Part shown: positions 26,560 to 62,354 of the stretch, piece by piece
How positions within the stretch are numbered: the stretch's first letter is position 1
Layout of the letters: the number at the start of each line of letters is the position of its first letter
NCBI GenBank assembly: GCA_028641055.1
Contig: CM054063.1
Location: 42,727,304 to 42,791,303 of the forward strand
Source: Alopecurus myosuroides
Taxonomy: Eukaryota > Streptophyta > Magnoliopsida > Poales > Poaceae
DNA length: 64,000 nucleotides
Reading direction: 5' to 3'
Notes under the pieces: generated by a model
What the model saw: the letters and a program-made list of their open reading frames with translations, nothing else
Databases searched by the model: none
Told to the model about the DNA's origin: nothing
Translations under genes and position numbers: made by a program

Positions 26560-26560
26560 G

Positions 26561-26578
26561 TTGGCGCCCACCGTGGGG
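26561..26578 (+). other. Gypsy-1 primer binding site
   Basis: TTGGCGCCCACCGTGGGG begins one base after the 5' LTR, where a tRNA 3' end (TGG is the complement of CCA) would prime minus-strand synthesis. I do not assign the tRNA. Confidence 0.8.
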
Positions 26579-26672
26579 CCTACGTCCAAGGGTGTTTACA
26601 TCACGGGAGAAGCTCGGGAGATTACGAAGAACCTCGTCGTCGGCGAGATCTACACCAACCCCAACGGAGAAA

Positions 26673-33321: not shown

Positions 33322-34376
33322 GGGGACTGGAGGGTTTTTAATGAGGCGGCTTGCTGACCTAACTTTTCACATATCAATAAAGAGATGGTTAAACAATATA
33401 TTGTTCCTTTTTTGTGTGTGTTTTTTTGTTGTTGTTAAGTTTTTATATCTCTGTTGTATTTCTGTTTATTCTTCTAGGTAAGCATTATTTATTGTTCTTA
33501 GTATAGTAGTTTTTCTAGTAAATTACATATATCTAGGTCTTGGGGGCTGATTGCTTGAATAGCACAGTTGCAAACTCAAAGACCCGGCCACGATGCCATT
33601 GAGTTATAAGGGCCGATTACTTGTAATAAGTACGGCTACAAGCTTATAACCGGACAATAGAGCCAAACTTTCTTGACTCTTCTTGCTTAAGCTTGATGTG
33701 ACTCGCACTAAAGTGGCATGCTTTGCTAGCGTATGATTGCAATCAGTCATGATGCCCAATGGGACTTGCCTGACCCTGTCTTTGTACAGCTGTAGCAACA
33801 TTGATTATCCACGCGAAAGCCGGCTTATAGTAGAAGAAGGTCGAAAGGGTCATCTAAACCACAAGTTATGCAGAGTACAAGGTTAACAGCCGGAAACTCA
33901 GAGTATATTAAGCATAACTTCAAACCTATGTGAACGGCTCTAGGTTTTGGGCCTTAGCAGAAACAATTTGTTCTTTTGAAAAAACTCAACACCCTAGACT
34001 CGGAAATTCGGGCCTTGGGGACTTGGAAATTTGAAAAAATGAACAAATTATCCGGCTATTCAGCTCAAAAACCAAAAAAACCGAGTCTTGGGGACTTAGA
34101 AAAAGTCCACTTGTCAAAACCCATGAGACCCGGAAACCGAGTCTCACAAAAGGAAATATAGCGAAAGTCGGAAAACCAGGAATGAAAAAAGCTCAAACTT
34201 AAAGAAATATCAAATTTACGCAAAGGCCAGAAGGGCCACGAAAGATATTAAGGTTTTAAACGTATTACAAACCAGGATAGTAGTATCAAAAAGTGCACAG
34301 GCGCACTATCAAAAGAATAATTGTTTTACAGGCCCATTGGCCGAATGAGGTGTTCGAGATGATAACAGATAAAAGT
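33322..34376. other. Gypsy-1 spacer between pol and the antisense gene
   Basis: AT-rich non-coding DNA where the sense pol transcript and the antisense gene converge. It corresponds to 49234-50353 of Gypsy-2 in reverse. Contains AATAAA at about 33377, a possible poly(A) signal for a sense transcript. No ORF is supported. Confidence 0.6.
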
Positions 34377-37300
34377 TCACTCGGCCTCCTGGGTCGAGTC
34401 GTCCATCTTGCCCTTTCCCTTGGTAGCCGGATCTTGGTCCTTGACTTGTTCTTCAATGGTCTTGGTAGCAGCAGCATCCGGGTCAGCAGTAGTACCGGCA
34501 CGCGAAGGAGGAGGAACAACCGGCGTGGAGGTAGTAGGTGCAATATCGGCCTCATCCTTCCTCTTTGCTGCCTCTTCCCTCAGCTGGGAAGCTTCCGCCT
34601 TCCACCGTGCCAGCATATCATAAGGCTTGGGAGGGTCCGACTTAATTGCCTTGTCTTCAGCGTCGTATGGTGGAACTATCAGACTGACATCCAGACTATC
34701 GGCAATCATACTAGCCAAGTGACGAACCTCTTTCTGGATGGCCTTGTAGTTTTTGGCTGAGAATCTGGATCCGTCATGGTTGAACTCTGGAAACCCGCCA
34801 ACGAGCTTTGCCGGCTCTAGCTTGGGAAAATACGCTTTAGCCAGAGCAAGCCCCCGGGTCACTCCAACCCGGCATGACGACGGTTTCTAGTGCTCGATCC
34901 ACTCGGGGATGGTTGAACACGCATCAAGCAGCGTGTTCAAACCACCATGACCAGTGCCCGGCCACTTCAAAGCATGCAGGATCCATTTGGTGCCGGCACA
35001 GAGTTGCCGGATCATGGTCTTTATCATCTTCAGCTTCGCTCTATCGTCTTCATCCGGAGTCTCGTCATCCGGCCCTGCAGAAAATATAAAGGTTTAAAGT
35101 AAGGAATTCCGAGTATTTTTCAGAGTGGAAAATCCGGGTTACTATTAGTCAGTCGGGAAGTATTACCAATTAAAGCACGGTGAGTATCGGCAATCTGGAC
35201 CGATAGGTTGGTCAGTTCGTCCTCTGCAGCATGACCTCTCTTTCTGTACTTTCTTGCAAGTTTCCCTGTCTTCTTGGCATCAGCTTCAACCGTCTCGCGC
35301 AGCTTCGTCTCCACCTCGAGGAGTTTGGTGGTTTTAGCCAACACTTTCTCAGAATGGGTCACGTAGGCCTGCATGGAAACACAAGGAAGGGTTAGTCGGA
35401 CAAAAACGAGCTATCAGTCGGATATGCTATGAAAGTTCCAAGCAAATTATCAATAAGTTCACTCGGAACTTTGGGACTAGACAAATATACAGGCAATATT
35501 ACTCGGATTTACCTCGTGCTTGGCTATCAAGGCTTCTAGGATGTTTTCTTCGTCAGCCCTCAAGGTGTGCAGAGCATCAAGCATCTGGGCAAAGCTCATA
35601 TCTTCAGGTTTGGTACCGGAAGAGCCGGCGGCCTGATCACTCGGAGGAGGAGTCTTTTTCGGCTTTGGGGGCGAAACACGGGTTGCCCCGGTGTCAGGAT
35701 TGGGAGTGCCCATCCTTGTGCCCAGGACCTCGACGTCGTCGTCCTCAGGTTCATCTGATGGCTTGGGAGACCCGGCTTCCTGCCTGGCCGAGTCTGTCAG
35801 GGGGTCTGGTCCTTTGTCTTCTTCTTCAGCACCTCTAGTTGCGGCGTTCATATTATCAACCGGATCTTCAGTTTCCCGGTTATCCATATTCATATTGTCC
35901 GGGTCACTGATCGAGACCTGGGCGCTAAGGAAAGTAAGGGAAACAGTCAGCGGTAATAAGCGAAGGATATCGAAAGTACCAATATATCGTATATCAAGAA
36001 GTGTAGCTTACCCAGCATTCACCACGAAGTCCGCCGGAAGCTCGCTGCTAGACGCGGACGAGGCTGTTACAGGATCTGAGAGTGAGACCCGGAACTGCCC
36101 GGCTAATGGATGATTGGGGGACGGCGAGTTGGGGACGTGGGGATACCTGGGTCGAGGGTATCATCACCCGGGGAATTCCGGGTTACCCTGCGCTTAGCCG
36201 GAGGCGGGTCCTTCAAGTGTGGCGAATTGGATAATTGTTGGTTAAGTTCACGCATATTAGCAAATGAATAGGGTTTGGATGACATGAAGGAATAAGGAAC
36301 TTTGAATACCACCCCTCGTGGTTTCCTCTTGGCCCCGACTTCAACTTCCGGCTCGGCCTCGCTTTTGTCGCTCTCGGTCTCTTCCGGGTCTTCCTTGTCA
36401 TCCTTATACTCCACCCCTGGTAGGCACAAATGCATAGTCGGAAAAAGAGAAAATATGGGAGAGCAAAGTAACCAAAGTTAAGATGATTGACACCCGGATG
36501 ATACCTTCATCGGTGTCAGCCGGCTCTTTTTCCTCTTCCGGGTTTTCGGAGGTAGGGGGAGTCTTGATGCTCCAAAAAGCGCTATCAGCCTAAGATAAAG
36601 ACATAAAAGTGAGAGTTAGTAGTTGCATCAAGTAAAAGTACAAGAGTAAAAGAATAAGAGTCGGATCTTACCGCGGGAGCCGGATTCTCGCGAGTGTATG
36701 GCTCTAACCCGGCTATATTCCAGATCACTTCCACCTTCTCCGCCAAGAAGCTTTTGATGATCTTGTTCGTATCACCAGCCGGATAATTCCTTGAGGAGTA
36801 GCGGAGCGCGTCCGTGACGTGTCCCGAGTATTCGCACATCAGCTTGGGCCGGATGGAGTTGGGTTGGATTCGGAAATTCACCCAAGTCTTGACTAAATTA
36901 AGCCCAGGGAGACCCTGGGCGGAGAGGACAGCTAATTTGGCTAGGAGTGGTTGGATGGACTCCCTATCCGATTCAGAGGCGAAGGCGTTGAAAGTGTCGG
37001 AGAGATCGAGGAGGCCCTCGGAGAAACCCGACAATCTCTTTTCGCCGGGTGGGGAGGCGTCCCGGCAATAGAAAAAAGATTTTTGCCAATGTTTGACATG
37101 GGAGTTTAAGCTCAGAGTCGGCATCGGCGAGTTTTTCCGCCTTTGGATCGACACTCCGCCGTAAGCCAAAAGGGACCCGTCACCGCTTTGGCGGCACGGT
37201 TTGCATTGGAACAACTCGAGAAATAAAGCAAGGTTTGGTGGGACACATAAATAGGATTCGCGGAGGACGATGAAATGGGTGATGTTTAACATAGAGTTAG

Positions 37301-37602
37301 GCCCTATGTGAAAGACTCGGAGGCCATAGTGGCTAAGAAGCTCACGAAAAAAAGGAGTGACCCGGGGGACGAAATCCCCGGATCACGTGCTCAACAAAGG
37401 AGATTTCCTCATTCGGATTGGGGGTGGGCCGGGTCTCATCACCCGGAACTCGCTAGAGGATGTCCTCCTGGGAAGGGAGGACGCCGAACTCGGCAAGCTC
37501 ATTTAGCTTCGCCTTGGTCACGGTGGACCTTGCCCAGTTTGCCGAAATAGACTGAGTCGGCCTTGCTTTCGCCGGTTGTTTCCCCTTGTTCTTGGGTGCC
37601 AT
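34377..37602 (-). pseudogene. Gypsy-1 antisense spliced gene (PF04195-like), broken copy
   Basis: Minus-strand exons with GT-AG borders: 37602-36672, 36589-36505, 36416-36012, 35924-35513, 35368-35167 and 35074-34377. Three exon lengths (85, 412, 202 nt) equal those of the Gypsy-2 copy exactly. The first listed exon begins MAPKNKGKQPAK and contains GPNSMLNITHFIVL and LFLELFQCKPC, which resemble the 'putative gypsy type transposon' domain PF04195. Later exons are acidic and include a coiled-coil-like stretch (KLLEVETKLRETVEADA). Lesions are a Trp-to-stop at 37453-37455, an extra base in an A7 run (37347-37353), a 40 nt shortening of the third exon that shifts the frame, and a Trp-to-stop at 34887-34889. 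Function is unknown. Confidence 0.8.
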
Positions 37603-38264
37603 GTGTGCAGTCTACAAAATAGAGGTGAAAAGCGCAGAGTATAAGCAGTTGAAAGACCCGGAAATTACAGGTTATCCGGGTATCAAAGAGCAGTTGCGGA
37701 AAATCTTTGGCAGATTGGATCTAGATTTAGAAATTTACCGAGAAATCTGTGACCACGATTGATGGAGGTGTACTATTGACCTAACTTACATACTGATTGG
37801 GAAGAAATGGAATGTGGACTACCCGATCATTGCGGAACAAGAAAGTTATCTAGAAGAGCGGATTGGATCTAACCTAGTGCGGGTGAGCTTGGAGATAAAA
37901 TCCATGGCAAGAAGGTTGTCTACGGGCGATTTCAGATCTAATCTAGATCAAGCAAGATTAAAGGTAAAGTTCGTGGAGGAAGAAAGCTTACTGGCAAGGT
38001 CCGGAGGAGATTGCGGCGGAGGCAAATGGCGCAGCCGCGGTGGCCTGCGGGATCTTCCGACGGACAGCTCGAGGGCGCGGCGGCGGAGGCTGACGGCGGC
38101 GCGGTGAGAGTCGAGGACGAGCGTAAACAGCGGCGGCTCGGTTCTGGCGGCGCTTCCGCGGGCTCCGTGGTGGCGCAGTGGCGAGCTCGAGCGGAAGAGC
38201 GCTGGGAGGTGAAGGAGATGGTGAGGAAATGGAACGTTAGGTTTAGGTTACCCCCTAGGGCACC

Positions 38265-38272
38265 TATTTATA
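38265..38272 (-). promoter_or_regulatory. Antisense TATA box, candidate promoter of the antisense gene
   Basis: TATAAATA on the minus strand, inside the palindromic context CACCTATTTATAGGTG, 660 bp upstream of the first antisense ATG and followed by a GC-rich leader-like segment (38220-37980). In Gypsy-2 the corresponding region (45210-45260) lacks a clear TATA. Confidence 0.5.
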
Positions 38273-38657
38273 GGTGCGGGTGGGGAAACCTAGGTTAATT
38301 GAGCGGGAGCCAAAATTTTCGGGAAGGATACCCGTCCGGAATTTTTGGGATAGGCGTTAAGTACCCGTGCGCGATATCCGGAAAAGATCAGAGCAAATTA
38401 CTTCCGCGATATCCGGACTAATTAACAAGCAAAGCAAGGCGGGTCTTCTGTGTCTTTCTCGGATTGTTGACCCGTGAAAGTGAAGATGGATTCGGAGAAA
38501 GCCGGGTTTCTATATGGACCACCAATGGAGTTAGGCCTAGTTGTTTATCAAAGCAACCTAACCCGGCCTTTTTGAGCTTGTGTGTTTATTATTTTTGTAG
38601 GGAATAGCATGCGCTTCAAGGAGGAACCCGTGAAGCCCAAGCTATTCTGGGGACTAC

Positions 38658-39132
38658 TGATGGAGGGATGATAACCCGGTAGGCTAACGCCAAGGTGTAA
38701 CTCGGCCCAAAGGGAACTGCGCAAGACCCGGCCTAGGGAAAGGAAGTTTCTAGAAGGCCCAAGAATATAGGTCTCGTAACCCGGATTGTGGGTTCCGATA
38801 AGGAAACTTAGGGTTTGTAAGCAGTACCCGGGTAGGACTCCGAGTATGCCTTGGAAAGGAAGCCAGGGGTCCGGATATTATATAAGCCTGCCCCTAGGGT
38901 TAGATTAGACACGAGACACGAGTTAACGAGTTTTACTAGCTATTCGAATATCCTTTGTAACACGAGAGTTGAGATAGTATATTCAGATCGGAGACTCGGC
39001 GACTTGATTGCCGGCTACCAGATCGCCTAGCACCATGATTTCCCTTGAGCTAAACCCTCTCCCAAACACCAGAGTCAAATTGCCCCAAGACAAGTTACCC
39101 CTGGTAACGTCTGCCGTGATTATCCCACGACA
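38658..39132 (+). repeat. Gypsy-1 3' LTR
   Basis: 475 bp, TGATGGAGGG...CCCACGACA, preceded by CTGGGGACTAC, which serves as the purine-rich priming region. Followed by the target duplication GTCTT (39133-39137). Confidence 0.95.
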
Positions 39133-39137
39133 GTCTT

Positions 39138-41827: not shown

Positions 41828-42187
41828 TTTTATTTTTCTGAATATTCTGATATATTATTTGTCTTTTTAAGATTTTAAAAAGAATTAGTTTTATTCTTCT
41901 GAATTTTCTGATATATTATTGGTATTTTTAAGATTTGAAAAAGAATTAGTTTTATTTTTCTGAATTTTCTGATATATTATTTGTATATTTAAGATTGGAA
42001 AAAGAATTAGTTTTATTTTTCTGAATTTTCTGATATATTATTTGTATTTTTAAGATTGGAAAAAGAATTAGTTTTATTTTTCTGAATTTTCTGATATATT
42101 ATTTGTATTTTTAAGATTGGAAAAAGAATTAGTTTTATTTTTCTGAATTTTCTGATATATTATTTGTATTTTTAAGATTGGAAAAAG
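41828..42187 (+). repeat. Tandem array, 60 bp unit, six copies
   Basis: The unit contains TTTTATTTTTCTGAATTTTC, TGATATATTATTTGTATTTT and AAGATTGGAAAAAGAATTAG. The last four copies are nearly identical, while the first two carry several differences, suggesting expansion from the right. No spacers, so not a CRISPR. Confidence 0.95.
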
Positions 42188-44381: not shown

Positions 44382-44865
44382 TGTCGTCGGATAATCACGG
44401 CAGACGTTACCGGGGGTAACTTATCTTGGGGCAAATCGACTCTGGTGTTTGGTAGAGGGTTTAGCTCAGAGGAAAACATGATGATATGCGATCTGGTAGC
44501 CGGCAAGCAAGTCGCCGAGTCTCCGAGTCTCCGATCTCGATATATTAGTTCAACTCTCGTATTACACTGGATACTCGATACCTAGCGATATTGCTCGAAC
44601 TCTTGGATCTCCCTAAACTAAACCTAGAGGCCGGCTTATATAATATCCGGACCCCCTGGCCTGCTCTCCAAGGTGTACTCTAAATCCTACCCGAACACTG
44701 CCTACAAAACCCTAAACTTCCTTGCCGGAACCCACAATCCGGGTTACCAGGCCTACGAACTTGGGTCTTCTAGAAGGTCCTTTATCCTTAGCCGGGTCTT
44801 GCGCAACGTCCTTTGGGCCGAGTCACTCCTTGGCATTGGTTTACCGGGTTATCATCCCTCCATCA
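44382..44865 (-). repeat. Gypsy-2 3' LTR
   Basis: 484 bp. On the minus strand it begins TGATGGAGGGATGATAACCC (44865) and ends near TTATCCGACGACA (44382), recognisably the Gypsy-1 LTR with numerous differences, one of them in the CCCACGACA end. The minus-strand sequence before it, AGCTATTCTGGGGACTAC, matches the same position of Gypsy-1. Confidence 0.9.
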
Positions 44866-45793
44866 GTAGTCCCCAGAATAGCTTGGGCTTCACGAGATTC
44901 TCTTTGAAGCGCACGCTATTCCCTGCAAAAATATCAAACTTACAAGTTCATGGAGGCCGGGTTAGATTGATTTGATAAACATCTAGGCCTAACTCCATGG
45001 TGGCCATATAGTAACCCGGCTTTTCGCAAGTCCATTGCTTCTCTCTCCGGGTCTGTACCCTGATAACGATGCCAAAGACCCGGTTCACTTCACTTGTTTA
45101 ACCGATCCAATAATCGCGGAAAAGATTTGCATCACATTTGCTCCGGATATCCCGTCTAGCACTTAATGCATATCCCGGAAAATCCGGACGGATATCACTT
45201 ATCCGAAACTTCCGGCTCTCACCTGTTGGCCTAGGTTTATCCTAATTCCAACGGTCCACTTCTCTTTCCTCTTCCTTCCCTTCACTTCCATGCTCGAGCT
45301 TACGGAGCACCGCCACGGAGACCTCGCGCGCGTCGCCGGAACCAATCCGACGCCGGCTACGCTCCGCCACAGTTCGTCCCGCGCCGCCGCCAAGCTCCAC
45401 CGCCGCGCCCCCGACCAGCCCGCCGGGAATCGCAAAGGGGCACCAAGACTGTGCCATTTGCCGTCGTCGAGCTTCGCTTCAATCTACTCCGGTACGCCTC
45501 TTACTCCCATTGATCTAGCTTTGCAATTTCTCAATTTATTTTAGATTGGGTCTAGCTCAATCCGCGGGCCATTTTTCTTGCCGCGCCGGATTAAACCGCT
45601 TAGATACTTGCTATCTCCTCCAACAGCTTGGTAGATGATCGCACACCACTCCCCTATCATCATTAATCATCAATTTCTCCGCCGAATCGTCCGCAAATTT
45701 TCTAATCTAGATCCATTTCGCCCAAATTTTCCGCGCCTGTCATTGACACCCGGAAAATCCTCTTCTTCCGGTTCTTTTGCTTGCAGTAGATAC
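44866..45793 (+). other. Upstream region of the Gypsy-2 antisense gene
   Basis: Corresponds to 37603-38657 of Gypsy-1 reversed. A GC-rich stretch (45290-45490) ends in a possible splice donor CCGGTACGCC, so it could be an untranslated first exon. No clear TATA box is visible. Confidence 0.4.
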
Positions 45794-48700
45794 ATGGGCA
45801 ATCATCCTTCTTACTCAAACACTTTTCAATACGTAAGTACCCATAGTTTCTTTACTGATACTTGATACCCGGCCGGATAACTTGTAATTTTTCACTCCGT
45901 CCACTGATACTCGGATAACTCTTAACTTTTATGTCTTATCGATACTGCTTGCATATACTCGGACAACTCATAATTTCCGAGTCTTATTTCCTGTACCTTT
46001 TTGTCTTGTGTTTTGCAGGTTGATCCCATTGCTTCCAAGAAGCAAGGGAAGCAGCCAGCCAAGAAAAAGACCACCCAATCCATATCCGCCAACTGGGTGC
46101 GATCCACGGTCACGAAGGCCAAGCTAGAAGAGCTGGCCGAGTTGGGGGTCCTCCCCTCTCAGAAGGACATCCACTGGAGGGTGCCGGGTGACGAGACCCG
46201 GCCCACGCCTGCTGACGACGAGGTAATCTGCTTCGTCGAACATGTGATCCGGGGGTTCCGTCCTCCGGGTCACCATTTCTTCCGTGAGGTTCTGAGCCAG
46301 TATGGCCTCCGGGTATTCGACATAGGGCCTAACTCTATGTTGAATATAACCCATTTCATCGTTCTTTCCGAGTCATACTTGTGCATTCCGCCAAGTTTGG
46401 CTCTCTTTATCGAACTTTTTCAGTGCAAGCCGTGCCGCGAAAGCGGTGACGGAGCACTTCTTGCTTGCGGCGGGGTTTCTATCCAGCGCCGCAAGAACTC
46501 TCCCATGCCTACTCTCACCCTCAATTCTCACGTCAAACACTGGCAACTTTCTTATTTTTACTGCCGAGACACCTCCCCACCCGGCGAGAAGAAACTGTCG
46601 GGTTACTCGGAGGGCCTCCTTGATATCTCCGAGTATTTCAATGCTTTCGCCCCTGACACGGACAGGGAGGCAATCCAGCCCCTCCTCTCCAAAATATTCG
46701 TCCTTTCCGCCCAAGGTCTCCTTGGGCTCAACTTGGTTAAGACATGGGTGGATTTCCGGATCCAACCCAACTCTATCCGCACTAAGTTGATGTGCGATTA
46801 CTCGAGGCACACCACGGACGCGCTCCGATACTCCACCAAGAACTATCCAGCCGGTGATACCAACAAAACCATCGAGGGCTTCTTGACGGAAAAGTTGGAA
46901 GTGATCAAGAACATCGCTGGGTTACCACCGTTCACCCGGGAAAATCCGGCTCCAGCGGTAAGATCCAATACTTGTAAGCTTATTCCCATACTTTGACTCG
47001 ATACAGCTACCAATTCTTACTTTCATGTTTTTATCTCAGGCTGACGATGCTTTCTGGAGCATCGAGACCTCCCCTTCTTCCGGAGACCCGGAAGAAGATG
47101 AAGAGTCGGCTGACAATGACGAAGGTATTTATCCGGGTCTTGTGTCAGCTTCACTTGCGTCATTTTCCTCACTCGTCTAACTTTTTCCATTGATACATAC
47201 TCGGCTTACAGGGCTGGAGGACGAAGACGAGAAGGACGAGGAGGACCCGGAGGCCATCGAGTCCGATCAAGAAATAACAGTCGGGGCCAAGAGGAAGGCC
47301 AGAAGGGTGGTAGCTAAGGTTCCCTTCTCCTTTATGTCCTCCGAACCTTACTCCTTTGATACCATGCGTAAACTTAACCAGCAATTATCACATTCATCAC
47401 ACTTGAAGGATCCTATTCCGGCCAAGTGTAGGGTGACTTGGAGTTCTCCGGGTGATGATCCCCTCAACCCGGGCATCTCCACCTCACCAGTCCACCGGGC
47501 CGGTACTCCTCCCCCTCATTCCTCCAACTCCCCTCAGCGTCACCCCTCCCCCAACCATCCACGGGCCGGGCAGGTCCGGGTTCCGCTATCGGTTCCTTTG
47601 ACGGCTTCATCCGCTTCCAGCAGCGAGCTTCCACCAGATTACGCTGTAAACACCGGGTAAGTCTTTACTATATGATATCCTTACATACCTGATAATTTTC
47701 ATCCACTGTTGCTAACTGTTTCTCTCTTTTTACCTTAGCGCCCAAGCCACACTTAATGACCTGGAGAACACGGAGACCAACAATCGGGAGACAGTTGAGC
47801 CGACTGATGATATGGACGCCGCGACTGGTGGCGATGTCGAAGGTAATCAAGAGGAAGGCCCCTTTGTTGACCCGGCTCACCAGGAAACCCGGTCTCCAGA
47901 TCCGTCCGAAGAGGCTGTGGACGAGGAGATTGAGATCCTGGATACAAGGATGAACTCTCCAAACCCGGATACCCAGACGGTCTCGGTCTCGACTCCTAAG
48001 TCGGGGAAAGTTCACCCGCCAAGTGATCAAGCTGCCGGCTCTTCTGGCGTCAGGCCCGAAGACATGACGTTCTCCCAGATGCTTAGTGCCCTTCATACCT
48101 TGAGGGCCGATGAAGAAAATATCTTGAAAGCTTTGATAGCTAAAGATGAGGTAAATCCGAATAATATTGCTCGTATCCTTATCTAGTCCCCAAGTTCCGA
48201 GTGAATTTCTTGATAATTTGCTAGGAACTTCGTAGTGCATCCGACTAACCTTTCCTTATGTCTCCACTCAGTCTTTCGTGGCCCAATCCGAGAAGAAATT
48301 GGCGAAGGCCACCAAGCTCATTGAAAATGAGGTGGCTCTACGTGAGGCAGCTGAAGCTGAAGCTAGGAGGAGTGGGAAGATCACAAGGAAGTATAGGAGG
48401 AGGGCTCATGCAGCAGAAGATGAGCTGACAAAGGTTTCTGTTAAGATTGTCGATACATATCGTGCAATGACTGGTACGATTCCTAACTTTGATAACGAAG
48501 ACCCGGATTCTCATTTTGATAGATAGTCGGATTTCCTTACTCATTGCTTTTCTTGCTTTCTGCAGGTCCGGATGAGGTGATCCTGGATGAAGATGATATT
48601 GCCAAGTTGAAAACTATCAAGAACACTATCCGGCAGCTCTGTACCGGAACCAAATGGATCCTTGACGAACTGCAATTGCCGGGTGTTGGGCGAGGTGACC

Positions 48701-49233
48701 TGAAGAAACTGCTGGATGCCTGCTCCACTATTCCCGAGTGGATTTGGCATTGGAAACGCTCGTCCTGCCGGGTTGGAGTAACTCGGGGGCTTGCGCTGGC
48801 CAAAGCTTATTTTCCTAAGCTCGAGCCGGCCAAGATTATGGGCGGGTTTCCAGAATTCAACCACGACGGGTCCAAGTTCTCAGCGAAGAATTTCAAGGCC
48901 ATCCAGAAGGAAGTTCGTCACCCGGCCAGTGCGATTGCTGATGGTTTGGATATCAACTCTATTCTCCCTGCATATGATGCTGATGACAAGGTGATTAAGT
49001 CGGATCGTCCCAATCCGTACGATATGCTGGCCCGATGGAAGGAGGAGGCTGCCAAGTTGAGGGAGGAGGCCGCGAAGAAGAAAGCTGAAGCCGATTCTGC
49101 GCCTGCTACCTCCACACCAATCGTCCCTCCTCCTGCACGGGCCGACACTGCTGCTGATCCGGATGCTGCTGCTACCAAGAGTGCTGGCAAGGGCAAGGAG
49201 AAGATGGATGCCTCAGCCCAGGATGCCGAGTGA
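45794..49233 (+). CDS. Intact seven-exon antisense gene of Gypsy-2 (PF04195-like)
   Basis: Proposed exons: 45794-45832, 46019-46957, 47040-47124, 47212-47656, 47739-48150, 48272-48473, 48566-49233. All six introns are GT-AG with pyrimidine-rich acceptors (for example TTCTGCAG), and the phases (0,0,1,2,0,1) agree, giving 2790 nt, 929 codons plus TGA with no internal stop. Exon 2 contains SISANWVRSTVTKAKLEELA, GPNSMLNITHFIVLSESYLC, IPPSLALFIELFQCKPC and LGLNLVKTWVDFRIQPNS, resembling the PF04195 'putative gypsy type transposon' domain. Exons 3-5 are acidic and Pro/Ser-rich, probably disordered. Exon 6 is a Lys/Glu/Ala heptad-like coiled coil, and exon 7 ends in another charged helix and an Ala/Pro tail. 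There is no signal peptide or membrane segment. It runs opposite to gag-pol of its own element. Exon 1 is the least certain; role unknown. Confidence 0.75.
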
Positions 49234-50353: not shown

Positions 50354-53300
50354 CTAGGTATAGTAGGGACGCAGCTGAGCCACGTTCCATGGTCTGTCTC
50401 TTTCTTGCACAGATGAAGTGGTATGAGCGGTGTCGTTAACCGTAGCCGACTCTTCCCTTTCATCTATCAAGTAATATGATCCATTGTGCGAATTCCGGCT
50501 TATGATAAACGGTCCTTCCCATGGCGGTGATAACTTGTGTTTTCCTTCGTTTGACTGAACCAGGCGCAGAACCAGGTCTCCTTCCTGGAAGACCCGGGTT
50601 TTCACGCGCCGGCTATGATATCTCCGTAAATCTTGCTGATATATGGCTGATCTTTCCAGGGCTTGTTCCCTGTGTTCTTCTAACATATCCACGACATCCT
50701 GCCACGTTTTTTCGTTCTCTACTTTGACGTAAGCTGATACTCGAGGTGAATCATGAATAATATCACTCGGCAACACCGCTTCCGCACCATAAACCATGAA
50801 GAACGGTGTCATCTGAGTGGATCTGTTAGGTGTAGTGTTGATACCCCAAACCACTGAAGGTAACTCTTCAACTCATGCACCAACAGCTCTGATACACGGA
50901 ACTCGCAATCGTGGCTTTAATCCACGAAGTAACTCTTGATTTGCCCTCTCCACTTGTCCATTGGCCTGTGGGTGGGCCCCTGATGCTACGTCAAGCCGGA
51001 TTCCATTGTTACCACAAAACTTCTCCATCTCGCCAAGGGACATGTTGGTTCCATTGTCGGTAATTATGCTGTGGGGATACCCGAACCGATAGATAATTCT
51101 TTTCAGGAACTTGACTGCTGTAACTGCTTCACAATTGGTAACTGGCATAACCTCAACCCACTTGGTAAACTTATCAATAGCCACCAAGAGATGTGTCTTT
51201 TTGCAAGGTGACATGTGAAAGGGGCCAACCATGTCCATACCCCAAACGGCGAACGGCCAAGTTAAAGGAATAGTCCGTAGTTCCATAGCCGGCACGTGGG
51301 TTTGGCGAGCGTACCTTTGACATCCGTCACACCTTGCCACCAAGCGCTCCGCATCTGCTAGGGCCGTGAGCCAGAAGAATCCATGTCGATAAGCTTTGGC
51401 CACAAGGGATCTTGTGGATGCATGATGCCCACAATCACCTTCATGGATTTCCTTGAGAATCTGTCGGCCTTCTTCTGGTGCTACATTGCGCAGAAAGACT
51501 CCTGCTGCACTTCTCTTGTATAACTCCCCATTGATGATAGAACATCCCTTTGCTCTCCTCAAAATTTGTCTTGCTAATACTTCCTGCTGTGGTAACTCGC
51601 CCCGTGATAGGTAGGACAGGAACGGCTCTGTCCACTCGGGAACAGCGCGCACTGTGGCCATGAGCTCGAAATCCGGGTCTTGATTTGCCAGTTCTTCCTC
51701 AGACTCGGTTTTGACTGATGGTCGCCATAGCTCATCCAGTTAAACGTTGGGTGGAACCGGCTCTCTGCGCGAGCCGAGTCTGGCGAGTGCATCTGCTGCC
51801 TCGTTTTTTTTCTGTCTATGTGCTCCACCTCATACCCGGAAAAACATCCGGCGACCCTATAAACCTCTCTGCGGTACGCTGCCATAGTTGCATCTTTTCT
51901 ATCCCAAGTTCCTGAGACCTGCTGTACGACAAGGTCCGAATCTCCAAAGCATCGTATCCTCTTAATATTCATCTCCTTGGCAACCTTTAAGCCATGCAAT
52001 AAGGCCTCATACTCGTCCACGTTGTTGGAACAATCAAAGTGAATCTGTAGCACGTAACTCAACTTGTCTCCTTTGGGTGAAGTTAGCACCACTCCAGCTC
52101 TTGACCCCTCGTACTGCTTGGAACCATCAAAGTGCATGATGCAAGACTCGGAGTTTGGGGCCAGGGTGGGCATGCTTGTGTGCGTCCAATCGTTAATGAA
52201 ATCGACTAGAGCCTGGGATTTGATTGCTGACCTTGGCTCGTAGTTGATGTGATAATCCCCCATCTCTATCGCCCACTTGCCTATTCTTCCTGTTGCATCC
52301 GTGTTTCTTATGATATCCGACATTGGTATCGAACTAACCATTGTTATGGGGTGTTCCTGGAAATATGGCTTCAGTTTCCGGCTGGCCATGAAGACCCCGA
52401 AAACTAGCTTTTGCCAATGTGGATAACGCTGCTTTGCTTCTGATAATACCTCACTGACGTAATAAACCGGTCTCTGGACCGGGTGATCTTTCCCATCCTC
52501 TTTACGCTCCACAACAACTACTGCACTGACGGCTCGGGGGCCAGCTGCTACGTATAGTAACATAGGCTCTTTAGGACCCGGGGCCGCTAGAACTAGTGCC
52601 TCAGATAACTGCTTTTTTAGTGCCTCGAACGCCTCATCCGCCTCTTGATCACAAACGAATTTATCGGATTTCTTCAAGAGCCGGTATAAGGGTATTGCCT
52701 TTTCTCCGAGTCTGGATATAAACCGGCTCAAGGATGCTACGCACCCTGTGAGTTTCTGAACATGCTTCAAATTTTCCGGCTTTTTCAGACTCTGGATAGC
52801 TTTGATTTTATCCGGGTTTGCCTCAATTCCTCTCTCGGAAACGATAAAGCCGAGTAACTTCCCAGCTGGAACTCCAAATACGCACTTTGTCGGGTTAAGT
52901 TTCATCTAATACCTCCTCAGGTTCTTGAAAGTTTCCTTTAGATCATCGATAAATGTCTCGGCCTTTCTGGTCTTGATCACCACATCATCTACATAACCAT
53001 GGACATTGCGTCCAATTTGATCCTCGAAGCACTTCTGAATACACCGTTGATAGGTTGCGCCAGCGTTCTTCAATCCAAATGTCATGGTTTTGAACAAAAG
53101 GCCCCAAAAGGGGTTATGAATGATGTTTTCTCCCAATCCTCTTTCTTGAGCTTGATCTGATGATACCCGCAATATGCATCCAGGAAACATAATAAGTCAC
53201 TTCCAGCTAATGCATCTATGATCTGATCTATCCTTGGTAATGCAAACAGATCCTTTGGGCAATGCTTGTTGAGACTCGTATAATCAATGCACATCCTCCA

Positions 53301-54690
53301 CTCGTTAGTCTTTTTCATCACGAGAACCGGATTTGCTAACCAATCCGGGTGAAATACTTCCATGATAAAGCCGGCTGTCAGTAGCCGAGCAATTTCTTCT
53401 CCTATAGCTTTCCTTCTTTCCTCATTCATCTTCCTCAAGCCCTGCTTCACGGGCCTGGACTTGGGATCGACGTGCAAACTGTGCTCTGCCAACTCTGTAG
53501 GGATACCCGGCATGTCGCTAGGCATCCAGGCGAACACATCCTGATTCGAACAAATGAACTCCACAAGTGCTTTCTCCTGCTCGCTGTCCAAGTTAGATCC
53601 TATAGCAAATTGCTTGGAGGGATCACCCTCGAAAAAAGCCACCATCTTTGTATCCTGTGCTGCCTTGAACTTTGCTCTTTCATCTTCAGTATTTGGTCTT
53701 TTTAACGCTGTTCTGTAATCCGGGTCTACTTGAGACCGGTAATACTTGAGTTCCTCTTTTCTGCAAGCTTGCTCCGCCATGGCTGCATCTCCTTCGTCAC
53801 ACTCGGCTGCTATATCCCGGTTCCCATGTATGGTGATGGTCTGCTTGGGACTCGGCATTTTCAGCTGTAGATACACATAACACGGCCTGGCCATGAACTT
53901 GGCGTAAGCCGGCCTTCCAAACAGCGCGTGATAAGGACTGCGCAACTTGACCACCTCGAAAGTGAGCCACTCAACTCGATAATTGTCCTTTGATTCTCCA
54001 AAAGCTACCTCCAATGTGATCTTTCCTTCGGGGCACGCTGATTGACCCGGCACAATCCCATGAAAAACTGTTGAACTTTTCTGTAGTTGGGACTCCTTTA
54101 GGCCCATGCGTAGAAAGGTTTCCCAGTACAAGATATTGATGCTACTTCCACCGTCCATCAGGACATTTTTCAACTCATAACCATTAACTTGTGGTGCAAC
54201 CACTAATGCTAAAACTCCCGGATGTTCTATCCTTTCCGGGTGATCTCTTCTGCTCCATGTTACGTCTTGCTCTGACCATCTCAGGTATCTCGGAACAGCC
54301 GAAGAAACCGAGTTTACCGCTTGCTTCAGTATCTTTTTGTCCTTATTAGAAGTTCCTGTAGTATGCACATGATATTGTCCCAGCTGTATGGGGTTAGCCT
54401 GGAAACCTCCAGCTCCCCCTTGGTTGTTACCCGGATTTCCGCCTGCCGGGTTACCGGCTGGGGGTGGGCCGTTGCCCGGGTTTCCACCCGGACCCGGTCC
54501 TCCTCCCCGACCTGCACCTCGCATGGCTCTGTTCACTTCCTCGTTCTTCCATCTCTGTAGGTCCGCGCACTGCTCCAGTGAATGGTTAGCCGGCCTACCG
54601 TTCCTATTGTGCTTTGGGCATGCCATTCTGAAGATATCCCAGTTGTTACTCGGCCTTGGCGGCCCTTGATAATTTCCTCCGTTGTGGTTT
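50354..54690 (-). pseudogene. Gypsy-2 pol, broken
   Basis: Same domains as Gypsy-1 in reverse. Protease VLMDGGSSINILY lies near 54145-54180. RT has YVDDVV near 52985-53003, followed by the inactive first RNase H, the archaeal-type RNase H (MHFDGSKQYEGS, ALLHGLKVAKEMNIKRIRCF) and integrase (GMDMVGPF, ITDNGTNMSL, NGQVERANQ). Lesions are a one-base deletion near 53090 inside RT, a Gln-to-stop at 52906-52908, loss of one A in a homopolymer at 51804-51811, a stop at 51740-51742 and a Trp-to-stop at 50873-50875. It retains the RT/RNase H segment that is missing 29 nt in Gypsy-1. Not translatable as one polyprotein. Confidence 0.92.
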
Positions 54691-56526
54691 CCTCCATTCA
54701 AATTTTCTTCTGCTCTAGGCCTCGAAGACCCGGCTTCTGTGCTAGCGACAAACTCGGAGCTTCCTTCAAACTGGCGCTTGTTCTGGTTGTTCCCATTGTT
54801 ACCTCCATTGTTACCCGGCGTTGATCCGTTGCCGGTTCTTCCATTGTTATTGTTCATATTTGCTTTTGCTTTCTTGTCATCGACATCCTCTTCTGTAGTA
54901 TCCGTTCCGGCGTGTTTGTTGCATGCATCCATTAGCTCTCCCATCGTAACTTCTGAAGCGTTCCGACTAGACTTCATGCGAGTTAACTTTTGCACTAAAG
55001 GTGTGTACTTGCAGGTCTTTGCCATAGTTTGCAGCGCATCCTTGGGATGAATATCTGTAGATGAATGGAGTATCTCCATAACCCGGCGCACCCAGCTGCG
55101 CGCCGATTCTCCCTTCTTCTGAACTCATCGTTCCAGGTCATCAATAGTGAATAACTTTCTGCACGTCCCATGAAAGTGCTTGATAAACACAGTTTTCAAC
55201 TCTTCCCATGACTTGATAGACCCTTCCGGTAGATTGGTGAACCATAACTTTGCTGCTCCCTCTGACATCATTAAGTACATGAATTTGGCTTGAAGATTCT
55301 CGGATGCATTGCGAATCGACATGGCCATCTCATAGCTGCTCAACCATGTCTCTGGATCCATAGTTGGCTCGTAATTCACTACTTTACCCGGTTCCTTGAA
55401 TTTATCCGGGTAAGGCACAGCCCTGATGTTATCCGATAGACACTTAGGCCCAGCGAGATAGTCGGAACTGGCCTTACTCGGGAAACGTGTGATCCTGCGG
55501 GAGGCGCGGCTGGACGCGGTGCTGCTGGCGGTCCATGCACCGTAGACCCGGCCGCGGCTCTCCTGGCTCTGGAACTATCCACGATAGCTTGCGCTGCTGA
55601 TGCCGCTGGTACTGCCTGAACGCGGGGAGGAGGCGGCATTTGCTGCTGCTCTTCCCTCCGTCGCGCTGAACTTGTCTGGATATTGCCGGTGTTGCCTCGT
55701 TGCTGGCTGATATATGGTGTCCCATGCATTCCACTTTTCTGATCCGGGTAATTAACTTGCTGCGCCACCGCAGTGCGCAATAGATCTATCGCCCACCGGG
55801 TCTCCTCTGCGTGGGGTGACTCTCTCACGGGGATTTGATTAAATGCGAGTGTTGCTGCGTACACATTATCCATGGGGTTATTGTAGTGACCTGCTGGTGT
55901 GCGAAATCGTGATGGTGGTGGTGGTGGTAATGTATTGCCGGTTATAACTCCAGTCTGCGGTATGGGTAACCCGGCCTGCACGTTTGCCGGCTGTGTTCCT
56001 ACACTCGCTGGTTGAGGTACAGTTCCTTGGTTCACCGCTGGAATCGGCTGATCCTGAGGTGTGATGAATAGTGCGGCCGGGTTTATCACTCCACCCGTTG
56101 CCGGTAATCTGGTTTGGTGCATTTGATGTATTCTAGTTGTTTCTTCTCGGAGCCGGGTTTCTAGTGCATCCAGCTCACGTTGGCGTGTGGCCATCCCTTG
56201 CCTTTCTGCTTCTACTTGCCTTCTCTGTTGTTCCAATGCACGACGGACTACGTCTAGGTCCCTAACACGTTCCGCCGCGTTCTCTGGAGTGATAACCGTG
56301 GCCAGAACGGTGGGATCTAGAATCATATTGTTGTTAAACAGGGCCAGGTGTTGTGGATTGGAAGGACCCACCCCTGGTGTCCGGTTTGCTAGAAATCCGA
56401 ACGTGTTCGCGTGCAACTCATTGTCCGCCGCTTGACTGGTAACTGATGCCGATTCTCCGTCAACCCGGACCAGGACCGGGTTTCCGTCAACCCTACCTTG
56501 CTGCTGGGACAATGCTTGTGCTGCTC
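54691..56526 (-). pseudogene. Gypsy-2 gag, broken and 5'-truncated
   Basis: Reads from 56526 downward: RAAQALSQQQGRV, the helical Gln/Arg-rich stretch (VVRRALEQQRRQVEAERQG), a Pro-rich linker, then the retrotrans_gag core MDPETWLSSYEMAMSIRNA and KLWFTNLPEGSIKSWEELK. An Asn/Gly-rich tail follows (NGRTGNGSTPGNNGGNNGNN). Lesions are a one-base loss near 55460 and a Cys-to-stop at 55125-55127. The 5' end is cut by Gypsy-3, so any ATG before 56526 in this frame belongs to the inserted LTR. Confidence 0.85.
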
Positions 56527-59500
56527 TGTAACATCCCAAGTCTGAAAAATAGCCTTTAGAATGTTTGCTCTCTGTTAAATTATGTTTTGCATCATGGCAT
56601 CATGTTCATTGCATTTGTTTTGTTTGTTTTCCTCTGTTTTCTATTTGAAATTCAAACCTTTTGTTTCATCCTTGTGATGTTACAATCTTTTCAAATAAAG
56701 AATTGCAAATCAAAAACCTCATTTGCTTCCAAGCAATTCATTAATGTTCACCTATTAAATTGTTGCTTTAAATCAATCAATTAATTCAATCACTTAATTC
56801 TAAATCATTTTCAAATCCAAACCAAGACTTAAAATCAGTACCTTTTTGGAATCCATGAAGTTCACCACACATTTATACTCTTTAAATCATCTTAAACCTT
56901 AGGGGTAACCTTATTAAAAATGCCTGTTTTCATAAGGTTTCATTAATATTAAAAATTCCCTAATTTTGGTTTAATTTCAAACAGCAAGCAAATGTTTAAA
57001 CTTTTGAAAATAAAAGCTAACAAATGTTTGCTTTTGGCCTAATGAACTTCCCCTAATTTTTCCAAATTTTTCTTTAAGCTAAAACCTATTCTTTTCTTCC
57101 AAATCTGTTTTCTACAAAAAAAAAAAATGAAACAGAAATAATAAAAAGGAAACGAGCAGCACCTAACTACCTAAGCCCAGCCCAACTTCACTCTTCTGGC
57201 CCACCCCCTCTTACTGTCGCATTCTTCAACCTGTCGTCAGCACTGTACGACCACCATCAGAACCGTGCGATCTCTCTTCCCTCGCTCGATGGCACGCCGT
57301 ACGAGCTCGAGGCCCCTATAACTAGCCTACCCCCCCCCCCCCCCGACCACCTGCTAACCCTAGCCCCATCCGCCGCGCCGCCGATTCCCTTTCTTCCCTC
57401 GCTTCCTTCTGCTCTTCTGAAACTCGCCGCAACCTGCCGGAGCAGCCCACCGTCGCCGCACCCCACGCAGCTGCCGTGAGCCAAGCTAGGGGGTGGGGAA
57501 GAACCACCCCACCTCCCTCTTCCTCCTCAGCCTCGAGCGCCAGCCGGAGTAGCACCGTAGCGTCCGCGGCATCATCGTCTTCAGTTCGGGCGTCGCCGGA
57601 ATTCTTCGAGTTCCCGCCGCCACGGTTCCCCTCGACCCCGATCAAGCACGTCTACCTCCTCCCGGTACTACCCCCGCTCCATTCCCTCTGTTTTTTCGGG
57701 TGTTTGCTCGCGGTGTATGATTTGCTCATCGGTGTCCTCCCTCTGTCCGCCATGAACGCTTCCGAGTCCGTGCTCGTGAGCCACCATCCTCTCCACCGAT
57801 GGACGCATCAGCAAACAAGGACTTGAACGTGCCACGCCCCTCCAGCACACGCGAGTGGCCGCGGTGCCCTCTCGCTCCTACCTCCGCCCCGTCGCCACCA
57901 CTGTCTCCCGTCGCCGTCAGACGTTGGACGCTGCGGGCTCGCCACGGCCACCTCGAGGAACCTCTGTCCCCGGGAATGGAACGAGGACCCCTTCATCACC
58001 AAGATCGCCGAAGGAACCCTGGCCAGGTAACCACCCGATTCGCCGCCCTCTTCCTCTGATCCTCGTCCGTTCCGGTGGTTCGTGTTCGTCATAGGCCCCT
58101 CGTGCAGCAGTACGTGTCTGATGTGGCTCGCGTTGCATCAGCGATCGTGCGGCATCTCAGTGGTAGGACTCGTCGTGGTACTGCAGTGGAACTTGGCCTC
58201 GATCCCCTCACGCGCATCGATCCCTCCTTCCTCTTATTCTTCTGTTCTGATCGCGAGCTCACGGAGAAACCTGCACTTTGTTTTCTGTCCGAGTTTCAGT
58301 TAGCCCGCAACTGCAGCATATCCTCCCAGAGCACCCCTATCTGACAAGAAATCTCGCTCGCCCTAGTGGCAACGCACAGCACGCGCAAGTGCAGGTCCAG
58401 GGTTCGATCCCTGGATCTCCCCTGGGATAAATCCCACCTTTTTTCGATCGAGTGCTGACAGGGAGGGCCCCCTGTCAGCCACTCACGTGCAACGCACGCG
58501 CACAGTGCCCTGGGCCCCCCTGGTAGTGTCTAGTGTACACTCCAGTGCGGTAACAAACGTTTTCCACACTTCTGTTTTCAAATTAAATCCTTTTAATTGC
58601 AGAATTACTCCCTAAAAGCAAAACTTTAATAACTTTTAATCTATAAGCCCAATTAATAAAAGTTATATATGTTTGTTATACCAAATCAAATGATCTTTCC
58701 AAATAATCCATTTGTGTACTGTTTTGACAATTCCAAATGCATTTAAATTCCAAATTCCAATAATTCAAATGCAAATTTCTAAATTCAATAACTATTTCAC
58801 TATTAATCCAATAAATGCAAATAAAATATGTTTTCCATACCATTTTGAATAACCTTTTCAAATATAATTTTTGTTTCCTGTTTTGAATAATTAAAATTGC
58901 CTAAACAATTTAATCCTTGTTTAATTCAATTAAAATTGCTAAAATCATAACTTGCTCAAATTTAATTATTCTTTAACATGTAAAATATGTTTTCAAACCA
59001 GAAAAACATAACCTTTTCAAATATTACCTTTGTCTTCTGTTTTGCACACTTTCACTTGATGAAAACAACCAATTGTTTGTGCAACATCATTAAGTAACCA
59101 AATTTTCCAAACTTAATAAATAATTTCTTAACTTGTTAACTATCATTCCAATTGCACCTAATATTGTTACATTATTGTTTTCATCATGCATGCATCATGC
59201 TAATTTACTCACACATGTTGTTTAGTTGTAGAACAATTATTTCAACCTTAACCCTGGGCTTTCCATATGCAATTTAATTGCATAGGGGTCCATTTAACTT
59301 GTGTTATCACTTCAACTAGTTTACTTTGATGCATCTATTAACATGACATGCATCATCCCATGTTTGTGCACCTATGCCATGTATTGATTGCCCGTCTTCC
59401 TTCGTTGTTGTTTTGCTTCTTCTCGATTTGACGACGACGTTGAGACGGACGATCTTTACGGTACTTCTTCACAGGATCTTAGCTCAGTACCAGGCTACTG

Positions 59501-61300
59501 AGTTTGCAGGCAAGTTATCACTCACATGAATCATCGAGTTCCTTTCCACACTTGTTGTTGATACTATCCTTTTGTCTACTATTGCTAGCCCTATGCATCG
59601 TTGCTTGTTCTCCGAACCCATCACATGATACCCTGAACCAATGATATTGCCTCACCTCCATACCTAAAACCCCTTGCTTGTGGCCTTAGTCTTATCTAGC
59701 ATGCTTAGAGTTGCTTTTGCTCGAGTCTGTTGTCGGTTACTCCTTTTACCTTACTTACTTGTTCTTCGGGCTTGGGTTTAATCAATCAACCTGTTAATGC
59801 TATGCTTAATAATAAACTTGATGATAAGGCACCGGCAGGAGGCCCATTTGTGGTTTTTAGGCCTGCTAGTGTCGACCCCCTAATTAGGAAAAGAGTCTTG
59901 TCTACTGATCCATGATGACCGCACTACCCGCATGTGGGAAGCGAGTATGGGCGCCCCCCTCAACTTGACCCGATTCGCATCTCGTCCAAATCGCCGTACT
60001 AGTTCGGGTGTTCCATTTGCTGCACATCATATGAAGGTACGAACCCTTGGCGCCAGGGTGGAACTTTTGTAGTCGGCATTTAGGACGGCGTGGTCTTCCA
60101 GTGCTATGAAGGTCCCCCACTTCTTCGGGGGGGTGGATTAGCCGCGCACGCACAGCACGCGGTGCTTTGGGCTTGATGCGAAGAAGGGTTGGTTGTGTTG
60201 AGTGTCTCGCTTGGTGGGAGGCATCCCATCTGGCGGGATATTCATGCGTGTACGGTTACTATGGTGCACCCCTGCAGGGATAATCTTCTCGAGAAGCCGT
60301 GTTTTCCGCGGTTATGGATTACTTGGTGAAAGTACTGGCTAACAAGTACTCAGGACAACTTCAACTTAATGATCAACCATCTACACCCAATGATTAATAA
60401 CTTGACTAGTAATAGGTTATTCACACAATAACTTGATTCACCTTTAATACAACTGTGTGTGTTATCCTCGGATTGCTTCTTCGGATAAGGGGCGAGATCC
60501 AGGATGGGTTTGTTTGGATTTACTTTCAGTTGGTTACCATACCCGATCTTATCTTCTATCTGTTAGTCGGAACTTGTAGTATCTCTGTAGTTGGTTAGCA
60601 GCCCGCTGCAGCTTTTATAATACCTATCTTCTTCCGTTGATCCCAAGCATCTATGCTGGTGTTGACGGGTAACTCTTTGATGAAGTGTGAGTCTTGCTTG
60701 CCAGTACATCAAATGTACTGACCCCGTTGGGGCTGTGGTTTACGCAGACTACGACTACGGCTACGATGATCAGCAAGATGGCTACCTCGCGGAGTTCGAC
60801 GAGACTGCAGACGAGTAGATAGCGGACCCGGGCAGGATCCGAAGACTACGTGGATGGGCTTCGTCTTCTTTATTTTTCCCCGGCTTCTTAAGCCTATTTG
60901 GATTTGTCTGTACTCAGACACCGTTGTTTGCTTCCGCTGATGTAATGAATGCTATGTTGGGACATGTGTCCTCTGAATGAGTGTATTTGCTATTCTCTTC
61001 CTTAGTGAAGGCTATTTGCAATATTATTTCATTCTTTTGTGTCTTAGAGACATTCTGTGGTATCATTTCGTTCCAACCTGTTGACGTACAGTGCGTGCTT
61101 GATATGAAGTATGTCGACAGCAGTGCTCGGGATTTCTAGCGGATAGTTTACATCGACGATGGAATAGCAGGGCTTGTGTTGTCGCGCATAAGCGCAGCCC
61201 TACCAGGAAGCTGGGACGTGGGAGCAGGTATGCCCCATAATCCAAGCACCTGCTATCCAGTTCGGCCCGATGAGTATCCTCTAGAAATCAGGGTGCGACA
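56527..61300 (+). repeat. Gypsy-3 5' LTR, 4774 bp
   Basis: AT-rich ends with a GC-rich, exon-like core (57180-58340) in which frames are open on both strands without any recognised domain, then AT-rich DNA and a GC-balanced 3' part (59400-61300). Contains a C15 run (57330-57344; C7 in LTR 2) and a tRNA-like arm at 58397-58414. At nearly 4.8 kb it is long even among grass gypsy LTRs. Confidence 0.92.
58361..58420 (+). other. tRNA-like (B-box) motif inside the LTR
   Basis: CCAGGG-TTCGAT-CCCTGG (58397-58414) is a perfect T-arm-like hairpin holding the B-box GGTTCGATCCC. About 35 bp upstream TAGTGGCAACGC resembles a degenerate A-box. No acceptor stem or anticodon arm can be built, so it is not a tRNA gene; it may be a SINE-like remnant or an internal pol III-like promoter. 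Confidence 0.3.
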
Positions 61301-62354
61301 AATGGTATCAGAGCCTGTCTGCCCGTAGGATCCCTTTTTACTGGTCGCAGTTGAGTCTAGAAACTATTTTGTAGCTATATAGGAAAAATGAAACGTGAGA
61401 GTAGGAATTCTGTTCTTTTTCTTCTTTTCCCCACCCTCCCTCCCTTTTTCTGGTAAGGAAGTGCAACGTTGAATTTTAACCCTTAGGATTTCACGTGTTC
61501 TGGGTTTTCCGTAGTACCTCAGGAATCTTGTTCTCGTTTTCCCGGTGTTGCTTCAATATCACGTTCTTCTAAAAATTTCCTTTCGTCCGTTGAAATCTTG
61601 TTGTTGTTTTCTACTTCATTTCTTCTACCGGCGTCAAATCAACTTCCCAAATATCAAATCTATCTGTCCAGAGAGGTTCTTGTTGTTGTTGTTGTTGTTG
61701 TTGTTTTCATTCCTCAAGCACCACATTCCAGATAGTCTATTCTCCATAAGGATCAAGTTCTGTTTTAATCAAAGTTTTCACCGTCCATCTACTAAACTCT
61801 GTTCCAGCCAAAGTGTTGTTTGATACCGGAGCATTACATTCTTTTGTGTCAAAAATCTTTTCCACAACATACAACCTAATTGTGGTTCCACTAAGCAGTC
61901 AAATCACCATTCACTCTCCCGGATCTCAAATGTTGACTTCCAACATAAGTAAGGACAATCAAATTCTAATGGGAGGCCACATATTCCTCGCTTCTCTCAT
62001 TTTGCTGATCCGGACATTGATGTCATTCTTGGTGTTGCATTGATGTCAATAACTTTGTTCCACCATTCTAGCCAGATAATCTATTCTCCAAATGAATCAA
62101 ATTGTACTCAGCTATACACCATCCATACAAAACCTATACCTCTACTAATATTGTTCCGGTGGTTTCCAAATTCCCTGATATCTTTCCAGAAGAATTGCCA
62201 GGATTACCTATCGTTTTGAACTTCCAGAAAAACTATCAAATGTGCACGATGTGTTTCACGTGTCACAGCTCAAGAGGATCTTCCCAAGAAGTATCCGGAC
62301 CTTTTCTTTTCTCAGTAGGAATCTCGGGGCGTGATTCCTTCAAGGGGGGCGTTT
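61301..62354 (+). pseudogene. Gypsy-3 internal region: remnants of pol
   Basis: After the primer site comes a CT-rich leader with (TTG)8 (61679-61704). The protease fragment LFDTGALHSFVSKIF (61816-61860) keeps the catalytic DTG. The linker just before RT, VPVVSKFPDIFPEELPGLP, ends near 62212. It is joined directly to the integrase C-terminus, YRFELPEKLSNVHDVFHVSQ (62219-62278, different frame). RT, RNase H and the integrase core are deleted between them. A G-rich polypurine tract (CAAGGGGGGC, 62341-62350) precedes LTR 2. Gag is absent. Confidence 0.85.
61303..61315 (+). other. Gypsy-3 primer binding site
   Basis: TGGTATCAGAGCC two bases after the LTR, complementary to the 3' end of initiator Met tRNA. 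Confidence 0.9.

Follow-up and report, generated by a model that had tools for sequence, protein, structure and literature searches.

A predicted intron-containing antisense gene, kept by purifying selection, in a Retand-type retrotransposon family of Alopecurus myosuroides

Antisense open reading frames (ORFs) with the PF04195 domain (TRP28) are a known hallmark of Retand elements, being reported for 97% of the recently active Retand clusters (PMC11963269, Vicient 2025), and the domain has been suggested to have a regulatory role and predicted to bind DNA (PMC11963269). In the survey by Neumann et al., which used getorf with a minimum of 250 codons, PF04195 was found in 23% of Retand elements, and the proteins of the extra ORFs were described as so divergent that any function was questioned (PMC6317226). 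Maize Grande has an antisense gene with its own promoter and a nuclear protein according to PMC7264820, which also urges a search for antisense and spliced transcripts, and a 2025 review names Ogre and EVADE as the exceptions among plant elements that otherwise have no introns (PMC12786077). Here we analyse a 64,000-nucleotide stretch of Alopecurus myosuroides DNA (assembly GCA_028641055.1, contig CM054063.1, positions 42,727,304 to 42,791,303; ‘the window’) that holds two copies, A and B, of what is, by its domain order, antisense PF04195 gene and sizes, one Tat/Retand-type Ty3/gypsy family. Judged from the sequences of the two copies, the antisense gene of this family is an accessory gene carried by the element, with introns, on which purifying selection acted during the period of transposition.

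The gene came to attention through a preliminary description of copy A, whose model of seven exons and six GT-AG introns (186, 82, 87, 82, 121 and 92 nt), with 2790 nt and 929 stop-free codons up to the stop, was reproduced exactly; when the introns are read through, at least one in-frame stop lies inside each of the six. The gene is located between pol and the 3' long terminal repeat (LTR) and therefore does not overlap gag-pol. PF04195 (Transposase_28, ‘putative gypsy type transposon’), which that description proposed to look for by profile search, was matched by hmmscan at residues 83-150 of the copy A protein (E 6.7e-19), with scores of 68.3 bits in copy A and 58.9 in copy B against a gathering cut-off of 26.2, and no further Pfam family was found in the copy A protein at E 0.01 or better. 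Sequence searches returned 20 relatives, all with PF04195 and all matching the exon 2 part, none of them matching exons 3-7; named proteins among them are limited to seven from Miscanthus floridulus.

Copy B, absent from the preliminary description, emerged from a self-comparison of the window as a further, oppositely oriented member of the family, its positions 27114-37683 aligning with 56526-45955 of copy A at 81%. It is complete, with TG..CA ends and a 5-bp target duplication (GTCTT) on both sides, and its two LTRs, aligned over 477 columns, are 96.9% identical, with one 9-nt gap and 6 mismatches among the 468 aligned sites (1.3%). In both copies an antisense PF04195 gene lies between pol and the 3' LTR, which is a hallmark of Retand and agrees with what had been claimed for an element of the Tat clade. 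The copy B pol piece at 30853-33006 has RT_RNaseH at 55-162, RVT_3 at 203-320 and rve at 495-590; we read RVT_3 as an extra ribonuclease H (aRH) between ribonuclease H (RH) and integrase (INT), and the order RH-aRH-INT is given for Ogre and Retand elements (PMC6317226). The sizes of copy B (LTR ~470, internal region 12,096, pol to 3' LTR ~5,650 with 33006 taken as the end of pol) fall inside the Retand ranges (315-1194 bp, 7.4-12.9 kb and ~2.9-6.6 kb, respectively; PMC11963269) and near those of Aegilops umbellulata 1 in the same survey (504, 12,140 and 5,663), although that cluster has one tandem array and none is listed for copy B.

To measure selection, copies A and B were aligned across the antisense gene, and a Nei-Gojobori script with bootstrap was applied to the aligned codons. 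Over exons 2-7 (897 of 917 codons usable) the ratio of nonsynonymous to synonymous divergence (dN/dS) was 0.157 (bootstrap 0.124-0.196; dN 0.172, dS 1.095), and the two copies differed at 165, 125 and 397 of 899 first, second and third codon positions (18.4, 13.9 and 44.2%). A ratio near 1 across family copies had been named beforehand as one of two outcomes that would speak against the proposed gene; the value above is what one copy pair gave. Each of exons 2-7 taken alone also yielded a ratio below 1, with upper bootstrap bounds from 0.171 to 0.781 (replicates with an undefined ratio, 43, 18 and 54 of 500 for exons 3, 5 and 6, were dropped). As controls, the two other forward frames gave 1.55 and 1.81 and the three reverse frames 1.17, 0.27 and 2.22, with 13, 23 and 44 stops, respectively, in copy A; the reverse frame at 0.27, which has 22 stops in copy B as well, is in our reading a mirror of the third-position signal. 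A scan in windows of 60 codons, one of them undefined, gave two minima of 0.07, one inside the PF04195 domain (residues 94-153) and one within exon 7 (residues 774-833), and a maximum of 0.39 (residues 534-593). Four gag-pol pieces (1943 codons) served as a yardstick and gave 0.092 overall, with 0.173 and 0.140 for gag and 0.062 and 0.072 for pol; the constraint on the antisense protein is about equal to that on gag and weaker than that on pol.

Since synonymous sites differ by 58% between the copies and the two LTRs of copy B by only 1.3%, most of the divergence belongs to transposing ancestors and not to dead copies (the timing rests on the LTRs of copy B; copy A has one LTR in the window). 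It was the transposing lineages that selection acted on, and there is no sign that the dead copy is under it. A role of the antisense transcript as RNA, in silencing through double-stranded RNA or in interference, is raised as a possibility in PMC7264820 and would leave the protein incidental. In the face of the codon-level constraint seen in every one of exons 2-7 we regard an RNA role of this kind as very improbable, but an additional one may exist alongside the protein.

Introns 2-6 have two lines of support, the conservation of their splice sites and the constraint on the frame that joins the exons. All five keep both GT and AG in copy B, so that the splice dinucleotides are identical at 20 of 20 positions, as against 273 of 404 positions in the intron interiors (Fisher P 5e-4), and in the four ORF-called relatives that reach the end of exon 2 (P0006, P0008, P0009 and P0013) the next residue is always valine, which in our reading fits read-through of a GT donor. 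Could the exons instead be several separate small antisense ORFs? The published surveys predict intron-free ORFs (PMC6317226, PMC11963269), 104 antisense ORFs in 63 clusters being listed in the second, and exons and introns are indistinguishable by indel length; but the spliced frame shows constraint in the small exons 3, 5 and 6 and the splice dinucleotides are kept throughout, and we consider separate ORFs unlikely. The survey of PMC11963269 used an ORF finder, and the word ‘intron’ is absent from its text, whereas the present gene has six coding exons, conserved splice dinucleotides and measured selection.

The preliminary description had also argued for selection from lesion counts. Its figure of at least seven stops or frameshifts in the gag-pol of copy A is borne out over ~5.9 kb (three one-base frameshifts and four in-frame stops, by open-frame continuity), and exons 2-7 of the antisense gene indeed run through 916 codons without a stop. 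The Poisson argument built on this difference fails, however: the antisense gene of copy B carries four lesions (two stops, a 1-nt indel and a net 40-nt frame-breaking indel), and with both copies pooled there are 4 lesions in ~5.5 kb of antisense gene versus 10-12 in ~11.7 kb of gag-pol, so that no depletion is seen and the stop-free gene of copy A is not evidence of present selection.

The stretch corresponding to exon 1 of the model is 59% identical in copy B (16/27) with a 12-nt gap, and contains no ATG and no open exon 1 there. In copy B an in-frame ATG occurs shortly after exon 2 begins, and the aligned codon of copy A (46028-46030) is not a start codon. Among 13 ORF-called relatives, whose start positions are themselves predictions, 10 begin with a methionine in the N-terminal part of exon 2, at varying distance from a conserved NW motif; in P0009 the methionine of this part is internal, and P0010 and P0013 begin further in. 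Exon 1, unconserved in copy B and passed over by the starts of copy B and of most relatives, should probably be dropped as a coding exon. A TATA box is present about 660 nt upstream of the copy B start, and the 36-nt stretch around it is missing in copy A; the box lies within a short palindrome in that stretch. An aligned GT (45492 in copy A, 37991 in copy B) together with the AG directly before exon 2 suggests an untranslated first exon followed by an intron in the 5' untranslated region (5'-UTR). The differences in start codon and TATA box may represent loss in copy A or gain in copy B. The antisense gene of copy A is probably not intact but a decayed member of the family, and is probably not expressed as this protein; neither ‘intact’ nor ‘a self-contained transcription unit with its own promoter’, as it had been called, describes a copy that is without a start codon where copy B has one and without the 36 nt that bear the TATA box.

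These observations together speak against adoption of the copy A gene by the host, which would have preserved it inside a dead element. Its 916 stop-free codons beside a gag-pol with at least seven lesions (Poisson ~4%) are what adoption would lead one to expect, but the start codon and the TATA-bearing stretch of copy B have no counterpart in copy A and the pooled lesion density is about the same in the antisense gene and gag-pol, so that we give adoption very little credence.

In the protein, modelling of the exon 2 part gave an overall predicted local distance difference test score (pLDDT) of 66.5 and a predicted template modelling score (pTM) of 0.66; most 10-residue blocks between residues 31 and 230 reach pLDDT 76-92, two are lower (46 and 64), and the remainder is poor. 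Residues 327-385 are acidic (42% D/E), and basic clusters occur at 381-386 and 680-684, the first being followed by a Pro/Ser/Thr-rich part, the charged stretch of exon 6 and a conserved C-terminal part. Akin to the Retand TRP28 ORFs of PMC11963269, this is a PF04195 protein encoded antisense between pol and the 3' LTR, and like gene23 of Grande (Gomez-Orte 2013, via PMC7264820) it belongs to an antisense accessory gene in a long 3' internal region. For gene23 an own promoter and a nuclear protein are reported, whereas here both are suggested by sequence features; of the traits of a gene23-like gene, the window offers the TATA box of copy B and the basic clusters only. HBZ of the human T-cell leukaemia virus (HTLV) is likewise a nuclear, antisense accessory gene of a retroelement, a likeness drawn in PMC11963269 and by description only, but the HTLV antisense promoter lies in the 3' LTR (PMC7264820), while the putative promoter here would lie inside the internal region. 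Ogre shares with the present family the Tat clade and the presence of introns, but its intron is in sense orientation, in gag-pol, and it has ORFs with a plant mobile domain. By analogy with the published relatives and from its composition, the most likely role of the protein would be that of a helper in the nucleus, associated with the DNA of the element or with chromatin, to which we assign slightly less than an even chance; it may instead serve in export, packaging or some other step.

Taken together, our results are, we think, quite probably explained by a Retand-type family with a spliced antisense PF04195 gene kept by purifying selection. A TATA promoter situated between 3' LTR and antisense gene would drive transcription, and an untranslated first exon and a 5'-UTR intron would come before the coding part, followed by splicing. 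Introns of a sense-strand gene would not pass through reverse transcription, but those of an antisense gene are present in the genomic RNA only as their complement and would survive it, which is how a spliced gene can travel in a retroelement. The protein would then work in trans, on element expression or on the nuclear phase of the element's cDNA. Introns and a possible own promoter also make the gene resemble a host gene, as though the family had recently captured one by transduction. Such a capture seems most unlikely: both copies carry the gene at gag-like constraint, the 20 relatives all have PF04195, and the domain is, according to PMC11963269, reported from flowering plants only and without similarity outside transposable elements.

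Several points weigh against a selected, spliced antisense gene. The selection test comprises a single copy pair with dS near saturation (uncorrected pN 0.154, pS 0.576), and the dS of the antisense gene (1.10) is twice that of gag-pol (0.54). Introns (30%) and the 3' flank (20%) diverge less than synonymous sites (58%), and recombination between element lineages could account for part of both contrasts. Of six indels in exons 2-7, five have a length not divisible by three, as do seven of the nine in introns 2-6, most of those in exons being copy B lesions. For exons 3-7 and introns 3-6 the comparison is with copy B only, and exon 7 has no similarity to P0004, the longest relative. The TATA box and the 5'-UTR intron come from one copy and one alignment, and the PF04195 model found no fold match in the PDB or viral structure libraries. 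The divergence contrast may have any of several sources, among them mosaic ancestry, base composition, or a flank that holds conserved regulatory sequence. This flank, positions 49237-50200 of copy A between the antisense gene and pol, differs by 19.6% from its counterpart in copy B, a possible sign of a conserved noncoding stretch or of mosaic ancestry.

Table 1. Coordinates of the two element copies, their antisense genes and an interrupting element in the window
Feature	Position	Strand	Basis or detail
Copy A antisense gene, model of the preliminary description	45794..49233	+	exons and PF04195 match
Exon 1 of that model, probably no real coding exon	45794..45832	+	unconserved in copy B; starts elsewhere, in exon 2
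Candidate 5'-UTR intron replacing model intron 1	45492..46018	+	GT and AG aligned in copy B 37991-37612; suggested
Exon 2, PF04195 (Transposase_28) domain, dN/dS 0.115	46019..46957	+	hmmscan, codon comparison, structure model
Codon aligned with copy B start Met, no start codon in copy A	46028..46030	+	copy A/B alignment
Intron 2	46958..47039	+	GT and AG kept in copy B; Val (GTN) after junction in 4/4 relatives reaching it
Exon 3, dN/dS 0.240 (0.068-0.781)	47040..47124	+	codon comparison
Intron 3	47125..47211	+	GT and AG kept in copy B
Exon 4, dN/dS 0.175; basic cluster resembling a nuclear localisation signal, and Pro/Ser/Thr-rich part	47212..47656	+	codon comparison, composition
Intron 4	47657..47738	+	GT and AG kept in copy B
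Exon 5, dN/dS 0.210	47739..48150	+	codon comparison
Intron 5	48151..48271	+	GT and AG kept in copy B
Exon 6, charged, dN/dS 0.176	48272..48473	+	codon comparison; possibly coiled-coil-like, by eye
Intron 6	48474..48565	+	GT and AG kept in copy B
Exon 7, dN/dS 0.146; conserved C-terminus lacking a Pfam match above cut-off	48566..49233	+	codon comparison
Copy A 3' LTR (5' LTR outside the window)	44382..44865	-	self-comparison
Copy A gag-pol, several open pieces: RVT_1 part (below cut-off), RT_RNaseH, RVT_3, H2C2, rve	50354..56526	-	ORFs, hmmscan
Other LTR element, cutting the 5' part of copy A at 56526	56527..64000	.	LTRs 56527-58182 and 62355-64000+
Copy B, complete element	26094..39134	+	LTRs 26094-26561 and 38658-39134, target duplication GTCTT
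Copy B gag-pol open pieces: Retrotrans_gag, RVT_1, RT_RNaseH, RVT_3, H2C2, rve	27025..33006	+	ORFs, profile matches
Copy B antisense gene, beginning at a Met in exon 2; introns 2-6 kept; two stops, two frame-breaking indels	34377..37602	-	alignment with copy A
Copy B TATA box, inside 36 nt absent from copy A	38263..38274	-	upstream of antisense gene

Around copy B, Transpos_assoc and Transposase_21 (tnp2) matches lie upstream (23873-26096) and DUF4216 downstream (39120-40028), flanks that we take to be CACTA-like and that suggest an insertion of copy B inside a CACTA-like DNA transposon. Further out, a Pol_BBD piece followed by a piece with DUF4283 and a zinc knuckle (16538-19437) probably represents remains of other retroelements, and a 61-bp AT-rich unit is repeated in tandem at 41827-42187 (5.9 copies, 96% matches).

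Among the literature matches listed, with the 2013 Grande paper known through PMC7264820, we found no account of introns being conserved in this gene or of selection on it being tested, and both the conserved exon-intron structure and the selection test appear to be new. They bear on the doubt about extra ORFs, since a function is here supported by selection about as strong as that on gag. They also bear on how such genes are found: a search for ORFs of at least 250 codons would catch the exon 2 part only (340 codons from stop to stop, the next being 236, 159 and 156), and spliced gene models would recover the remaining exons. Antisense placement as a route for introns through retrotransposition is a simple, testable rule. 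More tentatively, and with rather less than even confidence, we propose that Retand elements of flowering plants generally carry one long multi-intron antisense accessory gene, of which the separately reported ORFs would be exons, whose product would be nuclear and kept by selection like gag, and for which the antisense strand would be required if introns and an own promoter are to survive the RNA stage.
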